A stretch of 57,973 nt of DNA from Bryobacteraceae bacterium CoA2 C42 (GTDB taxonomy: Bacteria > Acidobacteriota > Terriglobia > Bryobacterales > Bryobacteraceae). How positions within the stretch are numbered: position 1 is the stretch's first letter; every line of letters starts with the position of its first letter. This document shows positions 20,972 to 31,494 of the stretch, one piece after another. The notes under the pieces were generated by a model, which was given only the letters and a program-made list of their open reading frames with translations, ran no database searches and was not told the origin of the DNA. The stretch covers positions 1 through 57,973 of the forward strand of contig JAINDL010000103.1 in the NCBI GenBank assembly GCA_019931245.1. The letters are read 5' to 3'. Position numbers and translations under genes: made by a program.

Positions 20972-23737
20972 TTAGAAGAAGGTGTAACTGGTGCCGATGG
21001 TAAAGGTACGGCCAATCTGGAAGCGGCGGACGACAAAATCGGCCTGCGTCTGCCGGTAGGTGTTGTTATTGAGGTTTTCGCCGCTGAAGCGTAACTTCCA
21101 CTTACCGGTTTCGCTCATGGTGTACTCGTAGACGAAGTCGAGCAGGACGTTGCGTTCCTGGTAGATATCCGGCAGTTGGAAGGTGCCAACGTCGGTGATC
21201 CGGCGCGAGACGCTGTTGACGTAGAATCGGCCATTGGAGCGCCAGGAGGGCCGCTGCCATTCGGCGATGACGTTGAAGATGTAGCGGGATTGGCCGACGA
21301 GCGGGCGATTGGCCGAGGTCAGCTGGACGAACTGATCGGTCGGGATTTTGACGTCGGAGTCGACCAGGGTGAGGTTCGCCTGGACGCCGAACTCGCGCAG
21401 AGATTTGCTGATCCGGCCAAGGCCTTGGCGCCACTCGAGTTCGACGCCCTGGTTGCGAGCGCTCGGAACGTTCAGGAAGCTTTGGCGGAGTTCAGAGGCC
21501 GTCGGACGGTAGATCTGTTCGATCGGGTCCTGGAACCGCTTGAAGAAGTAACTGGCGGCGAGAACCTGATTGCCGCCGAGGAACCACTCCCAGCGGACGT
21601 CGAAGTTATCGATTTTAGCGCGGCGGAGGTTGGGGTTCCCGACGGTGGAGAAGCCGCCGACGACGTTGGTGAACTCAAAGGGGGAGAGTTCGCGGAAGTC
21701 GGGCCGGTTGACCGTGCGCCCGTAGCCGAAGCGGATGTTCTGCTTGGTGGTGGCCTGATAGATGACGTTGACGGCCGGGAGCAGGTCGCGGTTATTGAGG
21801 TTGGCGACCGAAGGGATGCCGCCGGGGATGAGCGGGTCGAGGGTGGTGACGTTGATCTGGGCGTCTTCGATGCGGGCGCCGGAGATGACGCGCCAACGGG
21901 CGCCGATGGCGAGGTCGACCATGGTGTAGCCGCCGTAGATGTCCATGAGCGCGTTGTAGCGGTCGGTGCCGCGGGTGATTTCGCGGACCACAAAGCCGTC
22001 GGGGCGGATGTTGTTCGATCCGAGGACCACGTTGGTGGGTTGCGAGAAGTCGATGGTGGCGGCGCGGATGGGGAAGAAGCGGAAGCGGCGGCTGTCGAAG
22101 TCGCGACGGCGGACGGTGCCGCGGAAACCGGTTTTGAACAGGCCGCTGAACTTGCCTTTGAAGAAAGGGATGGACCAGTCGGCTTGCGGTTCGTAGATCT
22201 TGTCCTTGAGGGTGGAGAAGAAGCGGAGGCCGCTTTCGGGCAGGTTGAGGAAGGCGTAGGGCTGGTTGGAGCCGGGTTCACGACCGCGGATGGTTTCGCG
22301 GAGGTCCGGTTCGGAGCGGTCGGAGTTGGACAGGGTGAACTGCCAGTGGAAGACGCTGTTCTTCCAGCGGGCGATGGCGTGGTCCCCTTCGATGCCGGTG
22401 GACATGAGGCCGCGTTCGGTCCAGCGGAGGCGTTCGGAGAGAATATCCTGGCCGTTGCCGCCGTTCAGGCCGGAGATGAAGCGGGCTTCTTTGTCGGTAT
22501 CGCGGGTGAGGGTGTTGCGGAAGATGATTTTATTGGCGGCGTTGAGGCGGTAGGCAGCGTTGAGCACGGCCCCGATGCGGGCGGATTCGTTGCCGACGTC
22601 GAACTGGTAGTCGGAGAAGATCTGGGGCCGGCCGCCGCCGCTGTTGACGAGGAAGCGGCGATCTTCCGGGGTTTGCTGCGGAGAGTTATTGAAGGTGACG
22701 GCTGCGACGACGCCGAGTTTGCCCCAGGTGTTGCCTCCGGAGATGGAGTAGGTTTGGGTGGGGCGGGCGGAGGCGACGGGGCGGATCTGGTAGTCGGGGT
22801 TGAAGGAGCGGCCGAACTGCTGAAACTGCTGGTCGGAGAAGTTGCCGACGAACAGGCGCTTGTCGGCCGGGATGCCAGCCGGAATGCCGCGGTTGCCATC
22901 GTCAAAGCCGAAGGCGTCACGGGCGCCGCCGGCGAAGCTGCCGAAGCGCTGGCGGAAGGTTTGGGAGTTGAAGCCGTAGTTGACCGAGACGGTCATCGTT
23001 TTCTGGGCGGGGAATTCGGTGGTCTGCATCTGCACGAGTCCGCCGGAGAACTCACCGGGCAGGTCGGCGCTGTAGGTTTTGATGACCTTGATACTGTCGA
23101 TGAGGGAGGCGGGGAAGAGGTCGAGCGGGACGACGCGGCGCTCCGGTTCGGTGGTGGGCACCATGGCGTTGTTGAGCATGGTGGAGGAGTAGCGTTCGCC
23201 GAGACCGCGGACGAAGACGAAGCCACCGTCGACGACCGAGATGCCGGTGACCTTTTCGAGGGCGCCGGCGGCGTCGGAGGCGGTGCTGGCTTTGATGTCC
23301 TCCTTTGAGATGCTGTCGCTGACGGTGGACGCCAGTTTGCGCTCGACGAGGACGGATTCCGCGGTGGTTTGGACCGACCCGACTTTTTCGACGACTTCGA
23401 CGGTGGTGACGGCGCCTTTCTGCTGGAGGACGGAGCTGGCTTCGGTGATGGCGCCGGCTTTGACGGTGACGTCGTCGATGGTGGTGTCGAGGTGGTTGGG
23501 GCTGGTAAGGCGGAGCTTATAGGTGCCGGGAGAGAGGGTGATGGTAAAGCGGCCCTCGGTGTCGGTGGTCATTTTGCCATCGGAGACGCCGTCGACTTCG
23601 ATTTTGACGAGGGGGACGGGGCGACCGGTAGCGGCGTCGAAGACGGTGCCGGAGATGTTACCTTTGCCGGGGGGTTGGCCAAAGGCGAGACCCAGGGTGG
23701 CGAGCAGGAGCAGCGCGGCTCGAAGGGTGGTCAGCAT
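20972..23737 (-). CDS. TonB-dependent outer-membrane receptor with N-terminal CarboxypepD_reg-like domain
   Basis: This 921-residue outer-membrane protein has a signal peptide (residues 1-20), a carboxypeptidase-regulatory-like beta domain (GNISGTVFDAATGRPVPLVKI) and a plug domain (SISKEDIKASTASDAAGALE, VFVRGLGERYSSTMLNNAMV). A 22-strand type barrel ends in an aromatic residue (GTSYTFF). The N-terminal domain is common in SusC-like and Acidobacteria receptors. The ligand is unknown; the plug region DAAGALEKVTGISVVDGGFVFVRGL resembles receptors taken to import polymer fragments. It lies between the TIGR03437 protein (21-bp gap) and the beta-helix protein. Confidence 0.92.
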   Translation of the reverse strand: MLTTLRAALLLLATLGLAFGQPPGKGNISGTVFDAATGRPVPLVKIEVDGVSDGKMTTDTEGRFTITLSPGTYKLRLTSPNHLDTTIDDVTVKAGAITEASSVLQQKGAVTTVEVVEKVGSVQTTAESVLVERKLASTVSDSISKEDIKASTASDAAGALEKVTGISVVDGGFVFVRGLGERYSSTMLNNAMVPTTEPERRVVPLDLFPASLIDSIKVIKTYSADLPGEFSGGLVQMQTTEFPAQKTMTVSVNYGFNSQTFRQRFGSFAGGARDAFGFDDGNRGIPAGIPADKRLFVGNFSDQQFQQFGRSFNPDYQIRPVASARPTQTYSISGGNTWGKLGVVAAVTFNNSPQQTPEDRRFLVNSGGGRPQIFSDYQFDVGNESARIGAVLNAAYRLNAANKIIFRNTLTRDTDKEARFISGLNGGNGQDILSERLRWTERGLMSTGIEGDHAIARWKNSVFHWQFTLSNSDRSEPDLRETIRGREPGSNQPYAFLNLPESGLRFFSTLKDKIYEPQADWSIPFFKGKFSGLFKTGFRGTVRRRDFDSRRFRFFPIRAATIDFSQPTNVVLGSNNIRPDGFVVREITRGTDRYNALMDIYGGYTMVDLAIGARWRVISGARIEDAQINVTTLDPLIPGGIPSVANLNNRDLLPAVNVIYQATTKQNIRFGYGRTVNRPDFRELSPFEFTNVVGGFSTVGNPNLRRAKIDNFDVRWEWFLGGNQVLAASYFFKRFQDPIEQIYRPTASELRQSFLNVPSARNQGVELEWRQGLGRISKSLREFGVQANLTLVDSDVKIPTDQFVQLTSANRPLVGQSRYIFNVIAEWQRPSWRSNGRFYVNSVSRRITDVGTFQLPDIYQERNVLLDFVYEYTMSETGKWKLRFSGENLNNNTYRQTQADFVVRRFQIGRTFTIGTSYTFF

Positions 23738-23758
23738 ATTATGTTGCGGAAGAAGGAG

Positions 23759-24523
23759 TTATTCAGCGACCCAGATGGAGACCGCGTTGCTGGCGATGCC
23801 GTTGACGGTGACGATGACGGGTACCTGGCCGGAGACGAAGTTCTGGTTGGGGATGACGGCGTTGATCTGGCAAATGCCGGGGAACTGGGGGTGAGCGCCG
23901 GCGAACTGGGGGGTGACTTCAAGGACGGAGATGGTGACCTTGACGTCGGCCACCGCGCGGGAGAGTTGGGCCGGGGGCGCGCCGTCGGTGACGCGGGGGT
24001 TGGTGAGGCCGCAGCCGGTGGCATAGAGTTGAATTACTTCGCCGCGGCGGGCGCGGGTGGTGCGGCTATTGATGCCGAAGTCCTGATTCTGGGCGATGGC
24101 GGGGCGGGTGGGGTCGGTGCCGGCGGTGGCAAGGGCGGGCCAGAAGTCGTAAATGTTGACGTTGCCGCGGGCGACGGTGGTGCTGCCGTTGATGACTTCG
24201 ACCGGGGCGCTACCGATGGCCGTGCCGACGGGGACGACGAAGTTAATCTGATTGGCCGAGACGAAGTAGAGGGGCGCATTCACACCGCCGACCGTGAGGC
24301 GCACATTGGCGAGCGTGGTCGGCATGGGGGTGAGAGAGCTGAGCGCCGTGGTGGTGACGCTGCCAAAGCTGCCATAAGCGCTAGCAATCGACCCCGGCGC
24401 GACGGGCGCCTTCACGTCGAGGTTGCTGTAGTTGATTACGGTGACGGCACCGGGCGTCTGCGCCGCCATCAGCGCGGCAGAGAGAGCCGCGAGCACGAGA
24501 AAACGCTTACTAGGGATCTTCAT
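23759..24523 (-). CDS. Stand-alone TIGR03437-type secreted protein
   Basis: This 254-residue exported protein consists almost wholly of the Solibacter-type domain TIGR03437: VAPGSIASAYGSFG, NVRLTVGGVNAPLYFVSANQINFVVP, TRARRGEVIQLYATGCGLTNP and the closing VTVNGIASNAVSIWVAE. The domain is usually found at the C-terminus of long secreted proteins, so a free-standing copy at the head of a TonB-receptor operon is notable. It is immunoglobulin-like, and its role is unknown. The gene is first in the operon. The 119 bp before it hold its promoter region and the terminator of the radical SAM gene. Confidence 0.85.
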   Translation of the reverse strand: MKIPSKRFLVLAALSAALMAAQTPGAVTVINYSNLDVKAPVAPGSIASAYGSFGSVTTTALSSLTPMPTTLANVRLTVGGVNAPLYFVSANQINFVVPVGTAIGSAPVEVINGSTTVARGNVNIYDFWPALATAGTDPTRPAIAQNQDFGINSRTTRARRGEVIQLYATGCGLTNPRVTDGAPPAQLSRAVADVKVTISVLEVTPQFAGAHPQFPGICQINAVIPNQNFVSGQVPVIVTVNGIASNAVSIWVAE

Positions 24524-24582: not shown

Positions 24583-24618
24583 TAAAAAACAAAAGCCACC
24601 GTGCGGGCGGTGGCTTTT
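24583..24618 (-). terminator. Intrinsic terminator of the radical SAM gene
   Basis: AAAAGCCACCG (24591-24601) pairs with CGGTGGCTTTT (24608-24618) around TGCGGG. On the minus strand the stem is followed by a T-rich tail (TTTTGTTTTTT). It lies 25 bases after the stop of the radical SAM gene that ends at 24643. Confidence 0.9.
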
Positions 24619-24642
24619 GCTCTCTGTTGTGAACGTTGTGGC

Positions 24643-26745
24643 CTAATCGCCGAACGAACCCACTTCCTTGTCCGCTTGGGGAGCGGCTGGCTTGATGCCA
24701 CCGAGGGCGTCGAGCGGGACAAAACCGCCTTCGGGTTTGGGCTGCTTAAGGATGTGCTCGCGGTAGAGCTTCTCCATCTGGGCGTTCTTGGCGGCTTCTT
24801 TCAACTTCTCATCGCGGGCGCGCAGTTTCTCTTCGCGGGCGTTCTTGGCGATGCCCACTTCGTCGAGGTCGTGCTGCTTGCCGCGGGCGACGTCTTCGGC
24901 GTTGAGTTTCAGTTTGTGGGAGGTGTCGGCCATCTGCACCTTTTTGTTACCGGCGAAGATTTCGTGGCGGCCGTGCTCTTCGTACCACTTGGTGAGGGTG
25001 GCGGTCATGTGCATCTTCTCGATGATGTTCCGCCAGCCTATGCCGGTGTTGTAGGCGCAGAAGGAGATTTCACCTTCCTGGGTGGCGTAGGGGATGATGC
25101 ACTGTTCGGTCCGACGGAAGTCGTAGTTGAACAAATCCTGGAACCACATGCCGGCGATGAAGAGGAAGTTCCAGCGGTCGGCGCGGCGCTTTTGGATGTC
25201 GGCCATGGTACGGTCGCCGGTCACCTTGCCGTAGTTGCGGCCAGTGGCGCCGAAGCACTTGTCGAACTTCTGGAGCAGGTCGAGGAGGCGGAAGTGCGTG
25301 GGAGCGTTGAAGGGCTGATAGTTGCGGAGCAGGGCCAGCGAGACGCCGACGACGGACCAGAACTTGCTGCGGGCGGCGTCGTTTACCTTGGCGATGTCCT
25401 TGGCGAGGCGGTCGGCGTTCAGGAACCCGGTGACGGGCCGGGCTTCCTTGGTCTCTTTGTCGATCATCAGCGCCATGCCGATGCCGCAGTTCGGGTGGCA
25501 GCCGCAGGAGAGTTGGCCCCAGTCGGCGTTCGGTCCGTGGACGAGGTCGGCCCAGTCGGAGAAGGTGGACATGAAGGAGATGGGGAACCAGTCGCGGACG
25601 GGTTCGCCGAGACCCACCTGATTCTTCACGTCATGAGCGAGGTGGGAGAGCGTGTAGCGCTGGGCGGCACGCCGTTCCGGGGTGACCTCTTCGTCGCGGC
25701 CGGTGAAGGAGACGGGCTGGAAGGAGAGGAAGGAGATGATCTTCGGGTTGTCGAGGGCGAAGCGGATGACCGCGCCGACCTGCTCATTATTGATCCCGTT
25801 GATGATCGTGATGACCGGGACGATGTCGACGCCAGCGTTGTGCAGGTTGGTGATCGCCTTGAGCTTCACGTCGAACAGGTTGCCGACGAGGCGGTGCGAA
25901 TTGGCTTCGTTGCCGATGCCGTCGAACTGGAGGTAGGCGTAGCGGAGGCCGGCTTCGGCGGCCTGCTTGCAGAATTCGGTGCTCTTGGCGAACTCGATGC
26001 CGTTGGTGGCGGCTTGCACGGAGTTGTAGCCGACCTTCCGGGCGTAGCGGACCGCGTCGAGGAAGTAGGGCGACAGGGTGGGCTCGCCGCCGGAGAACTG
26101 GACCGACATCTGCCGGCGGGGCTTGATGCTGATGGCGTTATCGAGCATCGTCTGGATCTCTTCCCAGCTCAATTCGTGGACGAAGCCAACTTGGTTGGCG
26201 TCCATGAAGCAGGGGTCGCACATCATGTTGCAGCGGTTGGTGAGGTCGATGGTGAGCACCGAGCCGCGGCCGTGGGTAATGGTGGAGGAGCCGTGATTGT
26301 GCAGCTTCTCGTCGTTGTGGGCGCGGATATCGCGGCCCGGGAACACCTCTTCGAGGTGCTGCGAGAAGGCCGGATCGATCGACATCAGGTCTTCGAACTT
26401 GCCGTGGATGGGGCACTCTTTGACCATGAGGATCTTGCCGTCACGCTCAATGATGTCGGCCTTGATTTCGCCAATCTTTTCGTTGAGGAGAACGGAGACG
26501 TCCTTCTTGCCGTCGAGAACTTCCTTGCGAAGCTCGGGTACGCACTTGGGGCACAACGAGTCGGTCTTGCGCGGCCAGCCGAGCGGGGGCTTGGACTTTT
26601 CCCAGCTCTTGAGCAGGGGCTTTTCCGACCACTTGGGGGTGAACGACGGATTCGGGTTGATCCGGTTCAGACGCTCGAACACCTGCCAGGCGGCGTTCGC
26701 GGTGACCGTTACGGCCTTCTCAACGTACTTAATGGGCTTGTGCAT
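24643..26745 (-). CDS. Tes/MJ0619-like radical SAM protein
   Basis: This 700-residue protein has an N-terminal zinc-ribbon-like pair, C65-P-K-C68 and C111-P-I-H, in the pattern LCPKC...KECPIHGKFED seen in the MJ0619 family. The radical SAM site is C172-N-M-M-C-D-P-C179, with GGEP at 219-222. Later conserved cysteines lie in LSCGCHPNCGIG and in CIIPYATQEGEISFC, so more iron-sulfur clusters are likely. Archaeal relatives (Tes) join the tails of two ether lipids to make membrane-spanning tetraethers. Some acidobacteria make membrane-spanning branched tetraethers, so a lipid-coupling role is a reasonable inference. A charged helical tail of about 90 residues (NAREEKLRARDEKLKEAAKN) is an addition. 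The gene is monocistronic with its own terminator. Confidence 0.85.
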   Translation of the reverse strand: MHKPIKYVEKAVTVTANAAWQVFERLNRINPNPSFTPKWSEKPLLKSWEKSKPPLGWPRKTDSLCPKCVPELRKEVLDGKKDVSVLLNEKIGEIKADIIERDGKILMVKECPIHGKFEDLMSIDPAFSQHLEEVFPGRDIRAHNDEKLHNHGSSTITHGRGSVLTIDLTNRCNMMCDPCFMDANQVGFVHELSWEEIQTMLDNAISIKPRRQMSVQFSGGEPTLSPYFLDAVRYARKVGYNSVQAATNGIEFAKSTEFCKQAAEAGLRYAYLQFDGIGNEANSHRLVGNLFDVKLKAITNLHNAGVDIVPVITIINGINNEQVGAVIRFALDNPKIISFLSFQPVSFTGRDEEVTPERRAAQRYTLSHLAHDVKNQVGLGEPVRDWFPISFMSTFSDWADLVHGPNADWGQLSCGCHPNCGIGMALMIDKETKEARPVTGFLNADRLAKDIAKVNDAARSKFWSVVGVSLALLRNYQPFNAPTHFRLLDLLQKFDKCFGATGRNYGKVTGDRTMADIQKRRADRWNFLFIAGMWFQDLFNYDFRRTEQCIIPYATQEGEISFCAYNTGIGWRNIIEKMHMTATLTKWYEEHGRHEIFAGNKKVQMADTSHKLKLNAEDVARGKQHDLDEVGIAKNAREEKLRARDEKLKEAAKNAQMEKLYREHILKQPKPEGGFVPLDALGGIKPAAPQADKEVGSFGD

Positions 26746-27419: not shown

Positions 27420-28550
27420 ATGCTGATTCTTCCGTTCGCGTTATTGATTTCGGTAACCTGGAGTTTTGAAGGCGGCAGCGCCGGCCGGGTGGAGCCGGTG
27501 GGGGAGGGCCATGTGCGGATCGGGGCGCAGGGGCAGAAGGACCAGGACGGGCGCAACCGGCAGGCCAATTGGTACTCGTTTCGCGTGGATGGCGCGCGGC
27601 CGGGGCAGCCGGTGACGATTGATCTGGTGGACCTGCCGGGCGAGTACAACTACCAGCCCAACCGGGGAGCCGTGAACGCGGAGACGCCGGCGGTGTGGAG
27701 CGAGGATGGGAGGAGTTGGCGGCACGTCGAGGACTTCACCTACGATGCGGGCGAGCCGAAGATGACCCTGCGCATTACCCCGCGCGGCCGCCGCTTCTGG
27801 GTGGCGCATACCCCGCCGTACACGAACCGCCATCTGGAGGGGCTGTGGAAGGATGCCCGGCGCGCGTTTCGCCGCACGGAGATTGGCCGGAGCGTCGAGG
27901 GGCGGCCGCTGTGGCTATGGACGACGGGAACGGGCGCGAAGACGATCTGGCTGATGTTCCGGCAGCACAGTTGGGAGACGGGAAGTTCGTGGGTGGGCGA
28001 GGGGGCGGTGCGGGAGCTGCTGCGGAATGCGGCGCTGCGGAGCGCCTACACCTGGAAGATTTTGCCGATGGCGGATCCGGATGGGGTGGCGCGGGGCGGG
28101 GTGCGTTTTAACCGGCACGGGTTTGATCTGAACCGGAACTGGGACGTGAACGGGGTGGCGAAGATGCCGGAGATTACGGCGCAGCGGCAGGCGATCCTGG
28201 CGGCGGGCGGCGGGGCGCTGTTCCTGTCGCTGCACAATACGGAGACGGCCGAGTATCTCGAAGGGCCGCCGGTGACGGAGCCGGCGGTGCGGGAGTTGGC
28301 CGGGCGGTTTTATGAGGCGCTCGTAGCACGGACGAGTTTCGCGCCGACGCGGCCGCTGAGTTTTGCCGGGCCGGTGGCGGCGGGAAGGATGACGGTGATT
28401 CACGGACTGACCCGGGAGCGGGCTTGGCCCGCGTTTTTGATGGAGCAGCGGATCAGCCGGCAGCCGAAGTACGGGCGGCGGCCATTGGTGGAGGACCGGC
28501 TGCGGTTTGGCGGGGAGCTGGTGAAGGTGATGAGCGAGGTCTTGCAATAA
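27420..28550 (+). CDS. M14-family zinc carboxypeptidase, cytosolic-CP (Nna1)-like
   Basis: This 376-residue protein has an N-terminal beta domain ending RRFWVAHTPPYTNRHLEGLW, which is the pattern of the cytosolic carboxypeptidase (M14B) N-domain. The catalytic domain follows, with zinc ligands in FRQHSWETGSS (H and E) and SLHNTET (H), the DLNRNWDVN substrate-binding motif, and a Glu in FLMEQRIS as the likely general base. A hydrophobic N-terminus may be a weak signal peptide. It would trim C-terminal residues from peptides. It heads a five-gene plus-strand operon and ends three bases before the next gene. Confidence 0.87.
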   Translation: MLILPFALLISVTWSFEGGSAGRVEPVGEGHVRIGAQGQKDQDGRNRQANWYSFRVDGARPGQPVTIDLVDLPGEYNYQPNRGAVNAETPAVWSEDGRSWRHVEDFTYDAGEPKMTLRITPRGRRFWVAHTPPYTNRHLEGLWKDARRAFRRTEIGRSVEGRPLWLWTTGTGAKTIWLMFRQHSWETGSSWVGEGAVRELLRNAALRSAYTWKILPMADPDGVARGGVRFNRHGFDLNRNWDVNGVAKMPEITAQRQAILAAGGGALFLSLHNTETAEYLEGPPVTEPAVRELAGRFYEALVARTSFAPTRPLSFAGPVAAGRMTVIHGLTRERAWPAFLMEQRISRQPKYGRRPLVEDRLRFGGELVKVMSEVLQ

Positions 28551-28552
28551 CG

Positions 28553-28963
28553 ATGGCTACCTACGGCTTGGTGGAATACGAAGACGCTTCGCCCGCGGTG
28601 CGGGCCATTTATGACGAGATCCGGGCGGTACGGCAGACGGACTATATCAACAACTTCTGGAAGGCGCTGGCGCATAATCCGGCGACGCTGCGGCGGACCT
28701 GGGAGGGCGTAAAGGAGATCATGGGGCCGGGCGGGGCGCTCGATCCGTTGGTGAAGGAGATGATTTACATCGCCGTGAGCGCGACGAACGGGTGCGGTTA
28801 CTGCGTGGCGTCGCATACGGCGGCGGCGAAGAAGGCCGGGATGACGCCGGCGATGTTTGGGGAACTGATGTCGGTGGTGGGAATGGCAAACGAGACGAAC
28901 CGGCTGGCGGTGGGCTGCCAGATCGAGATCGACGAACGGTTTCGGACGAGTCAGGTACCATAA
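28553..28963 (+). CDS. Carboxymuconolactone decarboxylase/AhpD-like protein
   Basis: This 136-residue helical protein has the CMD/AhpD signature: a Glu in KEMIYIAVSATNG followed by C-G-Y-C-V-A-S-H with the redox CxxC and proton-relay His. AhpD-like proteins reduce peroxiredoxin partners or act as alkylhydroperoxidases; others are lactone decarboxylases. The CxxC-xxxH makes peroxidase-type redox activity the more likely. It is placed between the M14 peptidase (2-bp gap) and a repetitive secreted protein (6-bp gap). Confidence 0.88.
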   Translation: MATYGLVEYEDASPAVRAIYDEIRAVRQTDYINNFWKALAHNPATLRRTWEGVKEIMGPGGALDPLVKEMIYIAVSATNGCGYCVASHTAAAKKAGMTPAMFGELMSVVGMANETNRLAVGCQIEIDERFRTSQVP

Positions 28964-28969
28964 AAGGCG

Positions 28970-30481
28970 GTGCGGATCGCGATCGGATTGGCAGTGGCCT
29001 GTTTGGCGTGGGGGCAGCTGCCCCGGCCTGTGGAAGGCACGGTGGTGAACGGGTTGACGGGGGAGCCGCTGCGGCGGGTGAGCGTGCAGGTGATGAGCGC
29101 GGCGCGGCCGGTGGAGCCGGTGGTGACCGATGCGCTGGGCCGGTTCCGGCTGCCGGAGCTGCCGCCTGGGCGCTATCGGCTGCGGGCGACGCGGGCGGGT
29201 TTTTTTCCGTCGGAAAAGGGAGATGCGTCGGTGGAGGTGACGCCGGGTGATGGGCCGGCGGCGGTGACGATTCAGCTGAACCCCGGTGCGGCGGTGAGCG
29301 GAACGGTGACCGATGAGGCCGGCGAGGCGCTGCCGGGGGCGCAGATTACTTTGTTGCGGCGGGCGTACGTGGGGGGGCGGAGGAAGCTGGTTTTGGCGGG
29401 TTGGGGGGTGACCGACGACCGCGGGCAGTACCGGTTGCACGGTCTGCCGGCGTATTCCTACATTGTGCGGGCGGCGGTACAACGGTTGGCGGGAGACCCG
29501 CGGTTGTATCCGCCGACGTATTACCCGGCGGCGGCGGAGCCTGAGAATGCGCTGGCGGTGGCCTTGGGGCCGGGGCAGGAGCAGCGGGGGGTGAACATCA
29601 GCTTGCGGCCGGGACAGAGCTACCGGGTGAGCGGCCGGCTGGTGAACGGGTTGACGAATACGCCGCTGACGAACACGGCGTTGACGCTGATGAATCGCGG
29701 GGTGGGCGTGGCGGTGCTCGAAACCGGGCCGCAGGTGCTGGTGCGGGACCCGGGCGGGCGGTTCACGGTGCAGGGAGTGGTCCCAGGGGCGTACGATCTG
29801 ACGGGAAGCTATCTGGAGGCCGGGCAGATGCTGCAGGTGCGGATGCGCCTCGAGGTGAGCCGGGACCTGGACGATGTGGTGGTGACGATGCGGCCGGGGG
29901 TGACGGTACGGGGCCGGGTGGTGCTCGAAGGGGAAGGGAACCTGGAGATGGCGGCGTTGGGGGTGGAGATTGAATCGGACGAGGACCTGGTAGGCGGCGG
30001 GGGCGCGGCGCGGCCGGGGGCGGATGGCACCTTTCTGATTGGCCCGCTGCTGCCGGGGGGCTACGGGGCAAAGGTGCACCGGTTGCCGGCGGGGGCGTAT
30101 CTGCGGGCGTTGCGGGTGGGCGGGCGGGAGGCGGCGCTGGATCTATCCGGGGCGGCGGGGCAGACGGTGGCGACCGAGTGGGTAATTTCGCTGCGGGGTG
30201 GGCGGGTGGAGGGCGGGACGACGGCGGGCGCGGTGGTGGTGCTGGTGCCGGCGGCCGGGGCGGCGAATCGCCGGAGCCGCTACCGGGCCGGGGAGGCCGA
30301 TGGGGCGGGGCGTTTTGTCCTGCCGGGTGTAGCGCCGGGGAGTTATCTGCTCTACGCGTTTCGGAACGCGGAGGCGGGTGCGTGGATGGATGACGAGTTT
30401 TTGCGCGGGTTGCCGGAGGCGGGCGTGGCGGTGACCGTGGGGGAGCGGGAGACGAAGGTGGCCGACGTCAAGGCGCAATGA
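28970..30481 (+). CDS. Secreted protein with repeated carboxypeptidase-regulatory-like domains
   Basis: This 503-residue exported protein begins with GTG and a short signal peptide (RIAIGLAVACLAWGQ). It is built of several beta-sandwich CarboxypepD_reg-like units, each with the pattern G-x-V-x-(D/N)-x-x-T-x-x-P-L followed by D-x-x-G-x-(F/Y)-x-(L/V)-x-x-(L/V)-x-P-G-x-Y. Examples are VVNGLTGEPLRRVSV with DALGRFRLPELPPGRYRL, and VTDEAGEALPGAQIT with DDRGQYRLHGLPAYSY. Such proteins are very common in Acidobacteriota and are thought to be structural or adhesive. The stop overlaps the queG start by four bases, an odd pairing of a surface protein with tRNA modification. Confidence 0.85.
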   Translation: MRIAIGLAVACLAWGQLPRPVEGTVVNGLTGEPLRRVSVQVMSAARPVEPVVTDALGRFRLPELPPGRYRLRATRAGFFPSEKGDASVEVTPGDGPAAVTIQLNPGAAVSGTVTDEAGEALPGAQITLLRRAYVGGRRKLVLAGWGVTDDRGQYRLHGLPAYSYIVRAAVQRLAGDPRLYPPTYYPAAAEPENALAVALGPGQEQRGVNISLRPGQSYRVSGRLVNGLTNTPLTNTALTLMNRGVGVAVLETGPQVLVRDPGGRFTVQGVVPGAYDLTGSYLEAGQMLQVRMRLEVSRDLDDVVVTMRPGVTVRGRVVLEGEGNLEMAALGVEIESDEDLVGGGGAARPGADGTFLIGPLLPGGYGAKVHRLPAGAYLRALRVGGREAALDLSGAAGQTVATEWVISLRGGRVEGGTTAGAVVVLVPAAGAANRRSRYRAGEADGAGRFVLPGVAPGSYLLYAFRNAEAGAWMDDEFLRGLPEAGVAVTVGERETKVADVKAQ

Positions 30482-31494
30482 TCACGGCGGCGATGGTGCG
30501 GGAGGAGGCGGCCGCGGCCGGCTTTGCGCTGGCGGGGGTGGCGCCGGTGGGCCCCTATGCCGATCACCGCATCTATCGCGATTGGGTGGACCGGGGCCTG
30601 GCGGGGCGGATGGGATACCTGACCGACCACCGGGCGGACAAGCGCGCCGATGTGCGGAACCTGCTGCCGGAGGCGCGGAGCGTGCTGGTGGTGGGGCAGT
30701 TGTACAATCCACCGGCGCCCTACTCGACGGCGTTTTCCGAGGCCGAGCGCGGCTGGATTTCGCGGTACGCCTGGGGGCCGGATTACCACGATACGCTGCG
30801 GGCGGGACTGGAACGGCTGGTGGCGAGATTGCAGACGCGGCAGGCGTTTACCTACCGGATTTGCGTGGATACGGCGCCGGTGCTCGAGCGGTCGTTGGCG
30901 CGGTTGGCGGGGCTGGGGTGGATCGGGAAGAATACGTGCTTGATTCATCAGCAGCAGGGATCGTGGTTCTTTCTGGGCGAGGTGATCTGGTCGTTCGATC
31001 TGCCGGCTGACGGTGCGCCGCCGGACCGCTGCGGTACGTGCACGCGCTGCATTGACGCGTGTCCGACGGCGGCGCTGCGGCCGCGGGAGGGACGCTATGA
31101 GCTCGATGCCCGGCTGTGCATTGCCTATCTGAACATCGAACTGAAGGGGGCGGTGCCGGAGGAGTTGCGGGCGCCGATGGGCCGGCAGGTGTTTGGCTGT
31201 GACATCTGCCAGGACGTGTGTCCGTGGAACCGGCGGGCCGCGGCGCTACCGGCGTTTGCGGCCGAGATCGATCCGCCGCTCGAGCGGCTGGCGGCGTTGA
31301 CGCGGGAGGAGTTCGCGGCGCTGTTTGCGGGAACGCCGGTGGAGCGGGCGCGCTATCAGGGGTTTCTCCGCAACGTCTGCATTGCGATGGGCAACGCCGG
31401 GCTGGCGCGGTTCCGGGCGCCGCTCGAACGGCTGGCCGCGTGCGGGGATACTGTAGTAGAGGAGCATGCGCGGTGGGCGTTGGAGCGATTATGA
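30478..31494 (+). CDS. queG: Epoxyqueuosine reductase
   Basis: This 338-residue cobalamin-dependent iron-sulfur enzyme carries out the last step of queuosine synthesis in tRNA, reducing epoxyqueuosine. The catalytic Asp is in ICVDTAPVLERSLA. WIGKNTCLI binds cobalamin. The 4Fe-4S motifs are C184-GTC-TRC-IDAC194 and C241-DIC-QDVC248. It is somewhat shorter than most QueG proteins, with only a stub of the C-terminal HEAT-like region. The ATGA overlap with the preceding gene and with the following TPR gene puts it inside an operon of secreted proteins. Other queuosine genes are not in the window. Confidence 0.92.
   Translation: MITAAMVREEAAAAGFALAGVAPVGPYADHRIYRDWVDRGLAGRMGYLTDHRADKRADVRNLLPEARSVLVVGQLYNPPAPYSTAFSEAERGWISRYAWGPDYHDTLRAGLERLVARLQTRQAFTYRICVDTAPVLERSLARLAGLGWIGKNTCLIHQQQGSWFFLGEVIWSFDLPADGAPPDRCGTCTRCIDACPTAALRPREGRYELDARLCIAYLNIELKGAVPEELRAPMGRQVFGCDICQDVCPWNRRAAALPAFAAEIDPPLERLAALTREEFAALFAGTPVERARYQGFLRNVCIAMGNAGLARFRAPLERLAACGDTVVEEHARWALERL

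Follow-up and report, generated by a model that had tools for sequence, protein, structure and literature searches.

A conserved acidobacterial branch of the Tes superfamily that lacks the N-auxiliary cluster motif and probably forms iso-diabolic acid

Which lipid tails would an acidobacterial homolog of archaeal tetraether synthase (Tes) join, and into which product? The question arises from a stretch of 57,973 nucleotides of Bryobacteraceae bacterium CoA2 C42 (the window), which forms contig C114 in a draft genome of 6.07 Mb with 97.7% completeness and carries, at 24643..26745 on the minus strand, a gene for a radical S-adenosylmethionine (SAM) protein of 700 amino acids. An initial annotation, made from the nucleotide letters, had read this open reading frame (ORF), which indeed fills the interval, as a Tes/MJ0619-like enzyme that couples lipid tails, possibly to tetraethers. 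Judged from its sequence, the protein is a real and highly conserved enzyme of the Tes superfamily and a distinct variant of archaeal Tes. It belongs to an acidobacterial branch, here termed class A, whose main role is likely the joining of two iso-C15 acyl chains of phospholipids at their methyl ends to membrane-spanning iso-diabolic acid; a role in joining lipid tails is supported. The evidence established directly here concerns homology, predicted fold, the retention or loss of metal ligands, distribution and gene linkage. All features of the gene discussed below lie on the minus strand, and their coordinates are window positions.

The start codon (ATG at 26745) is backed by similar N termini among relatives, and the many relatives at 64–99% identity exclude a chance ORF. 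Pfam detects PF04055 (E 4e-18) and PF23545 (E 2.7e-13) in the protein, which matches the MJ0619 structure 7tol at E 4.5e-61 and, as predicted, shares the overall fold of 7tol and 7tom; the VIA-align lists, a second look at the Foldseek matches, exclude nothing. In a scan of genome contigs for relatives, the nearest named one among the best 80 of 582 loci was a protein from a Ca. Sulfopaludibacter (Solibacteraceae) metagenome-assembled genome (MAG) with 98% identity, in agreement with the Solibacter-like host proposed initially. The NCBIfam Tes equivalog NF045702 scores the protein at 311.8 bits, under its cut-off of 450, and the second-best NCBIfam match, the TrsS radical SAM (seleno)protein model NF045646, reaches 203.7 bits and misses its cut-off of 490. 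MoaA, NirJ, AhbC and PqqE were rejected as a family home in view of far lower scores. The gene is the single member of the Tes-like family in the host genome, in which the remaining NF045702 matches stay at or below 57.8 bits.

Among the own genome and 60 relatives, 56 of 61 were matched at E 1e-10 or better, and most matches are class A, i.e., frames of about 700 amino acids or longer with 64–99% identity to the window protein. Class B, the canonical bacterial Tes (e.g., L036 and L040), occurs in six of the 61 genomes (35–41% identity, mostly 550–577 amino acids) and is homologous to the window protein over approximately residues 56–579 at 32–39% identity. A third type, L048, is found in a single genome as a 31% match and is intermediate between TrsS and Tes (311.0 and 318.1 bits). 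Two class B proteins score 571.1 and 587.6 bits against NF045702 and exceed the cut-off, whereas four other class A proteins (314.5–323.3 bits) all remain under it. The tree proposed as a check by the initial annotation places class A in a clade of its own, both in a quick tree of 75 rows, in which all 64 class A rows form a single clade on a long stem (Shimodaira–Hasegawa approximate likelihood ratio test, SH-aLRT, 100), and in a careful tree of 31 rows, in which 24 class A rows are united (100/100). Class A emerges from among the class B rows in the careful tree without firm support (90/88), and the root is not settled, since archaeal rows are too few and since L048, L197, L198, MJ0619 and those from haloarchaea stand out as long or odd; for these reasons, the claim made here is limited to the class A clade. 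In the literature searched, which left supplements and the 2022 Mss paper outside, a split into two families of differing cluster content was not found stated.

The two classes differ in their metal sites. MJ0619 is reported to hold three [4Fe-4S] clusters and a rubredoxin-like iron (PMC9433317), and the chain numbering of its deposited structures is apparently that of the paper plus 20. Class A was aligned in 166 rows, among which are fragments and no fewer than seven genes entered twice, so that the rows do not stand for 166 independent genomes, together with seven further rows (six of class B, one of them a fragment, and L048). The radical SAM motif CNMMCDPC (C172-x3-C176-x2-C179, 26209..26232), which coincides with the CX3CX2C pattern of Tes and rests on the PF04055 match, keeps its cysteines in 165, 165 and 164 rows, respectively. 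The rubredoxin-like CX2C...CX2H site (C65, C68, C111 and H114, 26404..26553), whose loop is longer than that of MJ0619, is likewise retained, with each cysteine in 165 rows and H114 in 164. The C-auxiliary set of Tes (C420, C549, C563 and M533) is present in 166 of 166 rows at each position. C420, the counterpart of a C-auxiliary ligand of MJ0619, lies in C414-x-C416-x3-C420 (25486..25506), in which C414 (166 rows) and C416 (165 rows) are additional conserved cysteines relative to MJ0619; M533 (25147..25149) corresponds to the labile cluster ligand Met439, and C549 and C563 (25057..25101) flank Y553, the counterpart of Tyr459, which is likewise present in 166 of 166 rows. The CxxC, CPxH and CNMMCDPC patterns and the later cysteines noted initially are accordingly all present.

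The N-auxiliary site is lost. Its CxxxCxxC motif (C73/C77/C80 plus a His in MJ0619) is absent from 166 of 166 class A rows, in which the three positions are a gap, H151 and S154, whereas CxxxCxxCxxH is kept in five of the six class B rows and in L048, the sixth class B row being the fragment, which starts after the motif. In its place, class A carries the stretch H143-x-D145-x3-H149-x-H151 (26293..26319), conserved in 157, 164, 165 and 165 rows, which is a possible new metal site. The later cysteine clusters that the initial annotation had called archaeal in type are thus so for the C-auxiliary ligands but not for the N-auxiliary ones, and the absence of the latter is an instance of the loss of extra cluster cysteines that it had named beforehand as counting against its reading. 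The missing N-auxiliary motif and the cysteines C414 and C416, together with a confidently predicted N-terminal helix at residues 4–28, go beyond what had been noted before.

The product is suggested by the organisms that carry the gene. Among 297 Acidobacteriota genomes drawn evenly, matches at E 1e-15 were present in 165, of which 138 were class A by score, 18 fell in the class B range only (two of these, G247 and G278, could be fragments) and nine were weak only. Class A was present in 35 of 35 genomes of one family (f8) among the matches listed, and no genome of its taxonomic class was seen among 20 of the 132 unmatched rows; Edaphobacter, Granulicella, Acidipila and Acidicapsa, which are named genera of subdivision (SD) 1, group with this family in the tree. 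Among 170 genomes of the window's family with a completeness of 90% or more, 164 gave a match at E 1e-40, some of them, such as G369, G370 and G435, only in the class B range. Iso-diabolic acid is reported to make up 20–40% of the fatty acids in 17 SD1 and SD3 cultures and to occur in SDs 1, 3, 4 and 6 (PMC13274423). E. modestus DSM 18101, for which 30.4% iso-diabolic acid is given (PMC11354219), has class A at 313.8 bits against NF045702 and all else at or below 52.7. Of 12 Acidobacteriaceae genomes that are named or come from isolates, 10 have no NF045702 match above 70 bits other than class A, the exceptions being Acidicapsa dinghuensis, with a second match of 256 bits, and Granulicella sp. 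S156, with fragments of up to 94.1 bits. The genome of Chloracidobacterium validum BV2-C (G145) also carries class A, and iso-diabolic acid is described as a primary fatty acid of that genus (PMC12816986).

Several points weigh against this assignment. A review states "substantial amounts in 3 of 17 strains", apparently for the same SD1/SD3 study (PMC11767167). In C. validum BV2-C, class A shares the place of candidate with two additional Tes/TrsS-like proteins. Solibacter usitatus is reported to have two Tes homologs and branched glycerol dialkyl glycerol tetraethers (brGDGTs) with undetectable iso-diabolic acid, for which its authors allow rapid consumption (PMC10087280); should one of the two homologs be class A, the enzyme would not predict the product in a simple way. 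NF045702 found no match at E 1e-25 in Thermotoga maritima, and SD1 genomes may contain a more distant Mss beyond the reach of this model. The MJ0619 variants M439A, Y459F and Y459L are reported to be active still (PMC9433317), which makes the conservation of M533 and Y553 weak evidence for the Tes reaction. Additionally, 18 positions are fixed otherwise in class A than in the five class B rows and MJ0619, and together with the lost cluster they could mean another reaction.

Such a change, in which the fold was kept and a different lipid cross-link, a tail modification or a protein substrate was gained, with the lost N-auxiliary site and the fixed substitutions as its signature, would also fit the fully supported long stem of class A and its recurrent radical SAM neighbor described below. 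However, all C-auxiliary ligands are invariant, and the iso-diabolic-acid-rich E. modestus has no better candidate visible to NF045702; a new reaction is considered improbable. A different objection concerns novelty rather than function, namely that class A is the acidobacterial Mss of the 2022 Mss paper and hence a known family renamed, the reaction expected of both (acyl tails joined) being alike. Mss, compared here by description only, is said to share the Tes architecture in its models (PMC13274423), and Mss homologs are reported in 11 of 97 Black Sea Acidobacteriota MAGs; the same survey, however, counts Tes homologs separately, in 17 of 97 (PMC11868695). We consider this identity rather unlikely.

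Whether the window organism could make ether-bound products can be approached through PF09989, which we take to be a domain of PlsA/Ger-like proteins. The domain is not specific, as matches in Thermotoga maritima, Deinobacterium chartae and Lactococcus lactis among 14 control genomes indicate. It was found in eight of 42 genomes tested, and none was found in the host genome of the window, in E. modestus or in C. validum. In the family of the window (25 of 37 genomes tested), PF09989 was present in 5/5 genomes with class B vs. 2/20 without it (Fisher p 0.0004 by genome and 0.007 by genus), and two of the five (G034 and G036) showed no class A. Class B therefore accompanies the ether-forming domain, while class A does not need it. 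Since neither class B nor PF09989 was found in the host genome, the prediction drawn from its gene content is ester-bound iso-diabolic acid rather than brGDGT, which weakens the tetraether role suggested initially.

It is accordingly improbable that the window protein acts in its organism as a canonical tetraether synthase, with brGDGTs made from ether lipids, although the case for this is not empty. The protein is a Tes homolog; 456 bacterial Tes homologs, including those of Koribacter (42%), S. usitatus (40%) and E. aggregans (32%), were reported by Zeng et al., who proposed a role in brGDGT formation (PMC8941075), and E. aggregans, with that one homolog, which is probably class A, makes brGDGTs (PMC8941075). 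Furthermore, in one genus (g10), class A stands beside a Ger-like gene. Two genomes of that genus (G027 and G418) encode, on one strand, a 553-aa protein, a protein of 1187–1225 aa, class A and a 361-aa radical SAM protein. The large protein of G418 contains two PF01869 stretches and PF09989, and that of G027 is 87% identical and carries PF09989. Two activase domains are the described architecture of Ger, which is said not to be separable from PlsA by sequence alone (PMC13274423); the 553-aa protein has no Pfam or NCBIfam match. This gene set (L226 and L227) is an apparent operon for membrane-spanning or ether lipids. Against a canonical synthase in the window organism stand the NF045702 score far from the range of class B, the N-auxiliary motif missing throughout class A, and the distribution of class B and PF09989.

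The 361-aa radical SAM protein recurs with class A beyond this genus. Both proteins were present in 92 genomes of the 297-genome draw, class A alone in 46 and the 361-aa protein alone in three (95 with the latter in total; p 2e-37), and of 24 families with the 361-aa protein, 22 have class A too. Shared ancestry inflates this p value, and better evidence thus comes from the counts by family and from the two gene orders. Of 160 class A loci, many with short flanks, six have the two genes adjoining on the same strand at 41–210 bp, three with the 361-aa gene upstream and three with it downstream. It also lies directly upstream of class A in G346, G352, G304, G240 and G177, which together with G298 and G069 gives adjacency in at least seven of the 92 genomes; mostly, the two were not seen side by side. 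The host genome has one such gene, outside the window at C44:65033-66010, and another instance is L227:8378-9460. The protein stays below the cut-off of each of the 25 listed NCBIfam models, and the cysteines conserved in its C-terminal part point to a SPASM-like domain. A SPASM radical SAM enzyme, glycerol monoalkyl glycerol tetraether (GMGT) synthase, is reported to act on tetraethers (PMC11186832), a precedent for SPASM radical SAM proteins able to act on lipid tails.

For the reaction itself, we infer substrate, product, cluster roles and docking largely by analogy. In the scheme published for MJ0619, two SAM-derived radicals are generated, and the first substrate radical is stored on the C-auxiliary cluster before the bond is formed (PMC9433317); the ligands of both clusters involved are kept in class A. 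SAM would be cleaved at the radical SAM cluster (C172/C176/C179), and a hydrogen would be taken from the tail end. The first substrate radical may then be parked on the C-auxiliary [4Fe-4S] cluster (C420/C549/C563 and Met533), after which a second SAM would give a second radical and a Csp3–Csp3 bond would form between the tails. The rubredoxin-like site is retained, and the N-auxiliary cluster would be either dispensable or replaced by the H143/D145/H149/H151 stretch. The role of the other metal sites of MJ0619 is stated to be unclear (PMC9433317), so catalysis need not suffer from the loss of the N-auxiliary cluster. Docking on the membrane or on a partner may fall to the N-terminal helix and the C-terminal tail; the best candidate for a partner is the 361-aa protein. 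Tentatively, the whole could be the long-sought acidobacterial iso-diabolic acid synthase, performing sp3–sp3 coupling with an H-x-D-x3-H-x-H site instead of the N-auxiliary cluster and together with a second radical SAM protein dedicated to this task; in a subset of genomes, brGDGTs would then come from a separate canonical Tes with Ger/PlsA.

The two added parts lie outside the 7tom alignment, which spans residues 57 to 595, and, with the longer rubredoxin loop, they further distinguish the window protein from MJ0619 (Tes/GDGT-MAS). The N-terminal helix (residues 4–28, 26662..26736) is predicted by AlphaFold2 with a predicted local distance difference test (pLDDT) of 91–96 in ten-residue blocks, and its hydrophobic moment reaches 0.52; this fits an interfacial helix, albeit without proving one, and contact with the membrane or a partner is possible. 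The 105-residue tail (residues 596–700, 24646..24960), without a counterpart in Tes, contains a predicted helix at 636–664 and 20 K/R and 18 D/E among the last 100 residues, and is thus as charged and helical as had been described. Its last two residues are Gly-Asp in no fewer than 103 of the 166 class A rows, some of which are shortened. A partner recruited by the tail had also been suggested; the partner is plausible, but no observation connects it with the tail. A hairpin at 24590..24619 (a 13-pair stem with a loop of 4, terminator-like on both strands) closely follows the stop codon and is plausible as the gene's own terminator, although sites of this class are not above chance in the window (five vs. 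a shuffle mean of 4.2).

The monocistronic layout noted initially agrees with neighbor sets of 119 and 160 loci, in which no widespread operon partner was conserved at the window locus; a conserved operon was rejected there, as the widespread neighbor clusters are shadow ORFs of the gene or lineage-shared genes. Downstream on the same strand, a TonB-dependent receptor and an IPT/TIG-domain protein (20972–24523) keep this order mainly in near relatives. Upstream on the opposite strand (27420–31494) are an M14 carboxypeptidase, a carboxymuconolactone decarboxylase-family protein and a third protein that we take to be QueG-like; at 16 of 160 loci, class A has a relative of this third protein no more than 4.5 kb away. 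The window protein is about 80% identical to homologs in another family of the taxonomic class (f8) and about 68% to those of f3 in its own order, a pattern that suggests an old duplication or transfer. Two class A paralogs, at approximately 69–72% and 50–53% identity to the window protein, occur in G084, G334 and G127 (f26) and in G208 (f33). No plasmid-borne relatives near class A identity were found, the six records being at 23–28% (four Halobacteria, Persicobacter and Nonomuraea); on two haloarchaeal plasmids (L195 and L196), the distant Tes homolog lies directly upstream of a methyltransferase gene. Two records titled Rhodanobacteraceae (L127 and L129), among the best 80 of 582 loci, hold Acidobacteriaceae-type class A at 86–87% identity and are probably mislabeled or mis-binned.

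The brGDGTs of soils and sediments are a standard proxy for temperature and pH, and their acidobacterial sources and the coupling enzyme are unsettled. If every acidobacterial Tes homolog is taken as a brGDGT marker, two enzymes are mixed: class A, which is widespread and fits (ester) iso-diabolic acid, and class B, which is patchy and comes with the ether-forming domain in the family examined. The split between the two would provide testable gene markers, and it may also offer a natural experiment that shows which extra metal sites of Tes the coupling of two inert carbons requires.
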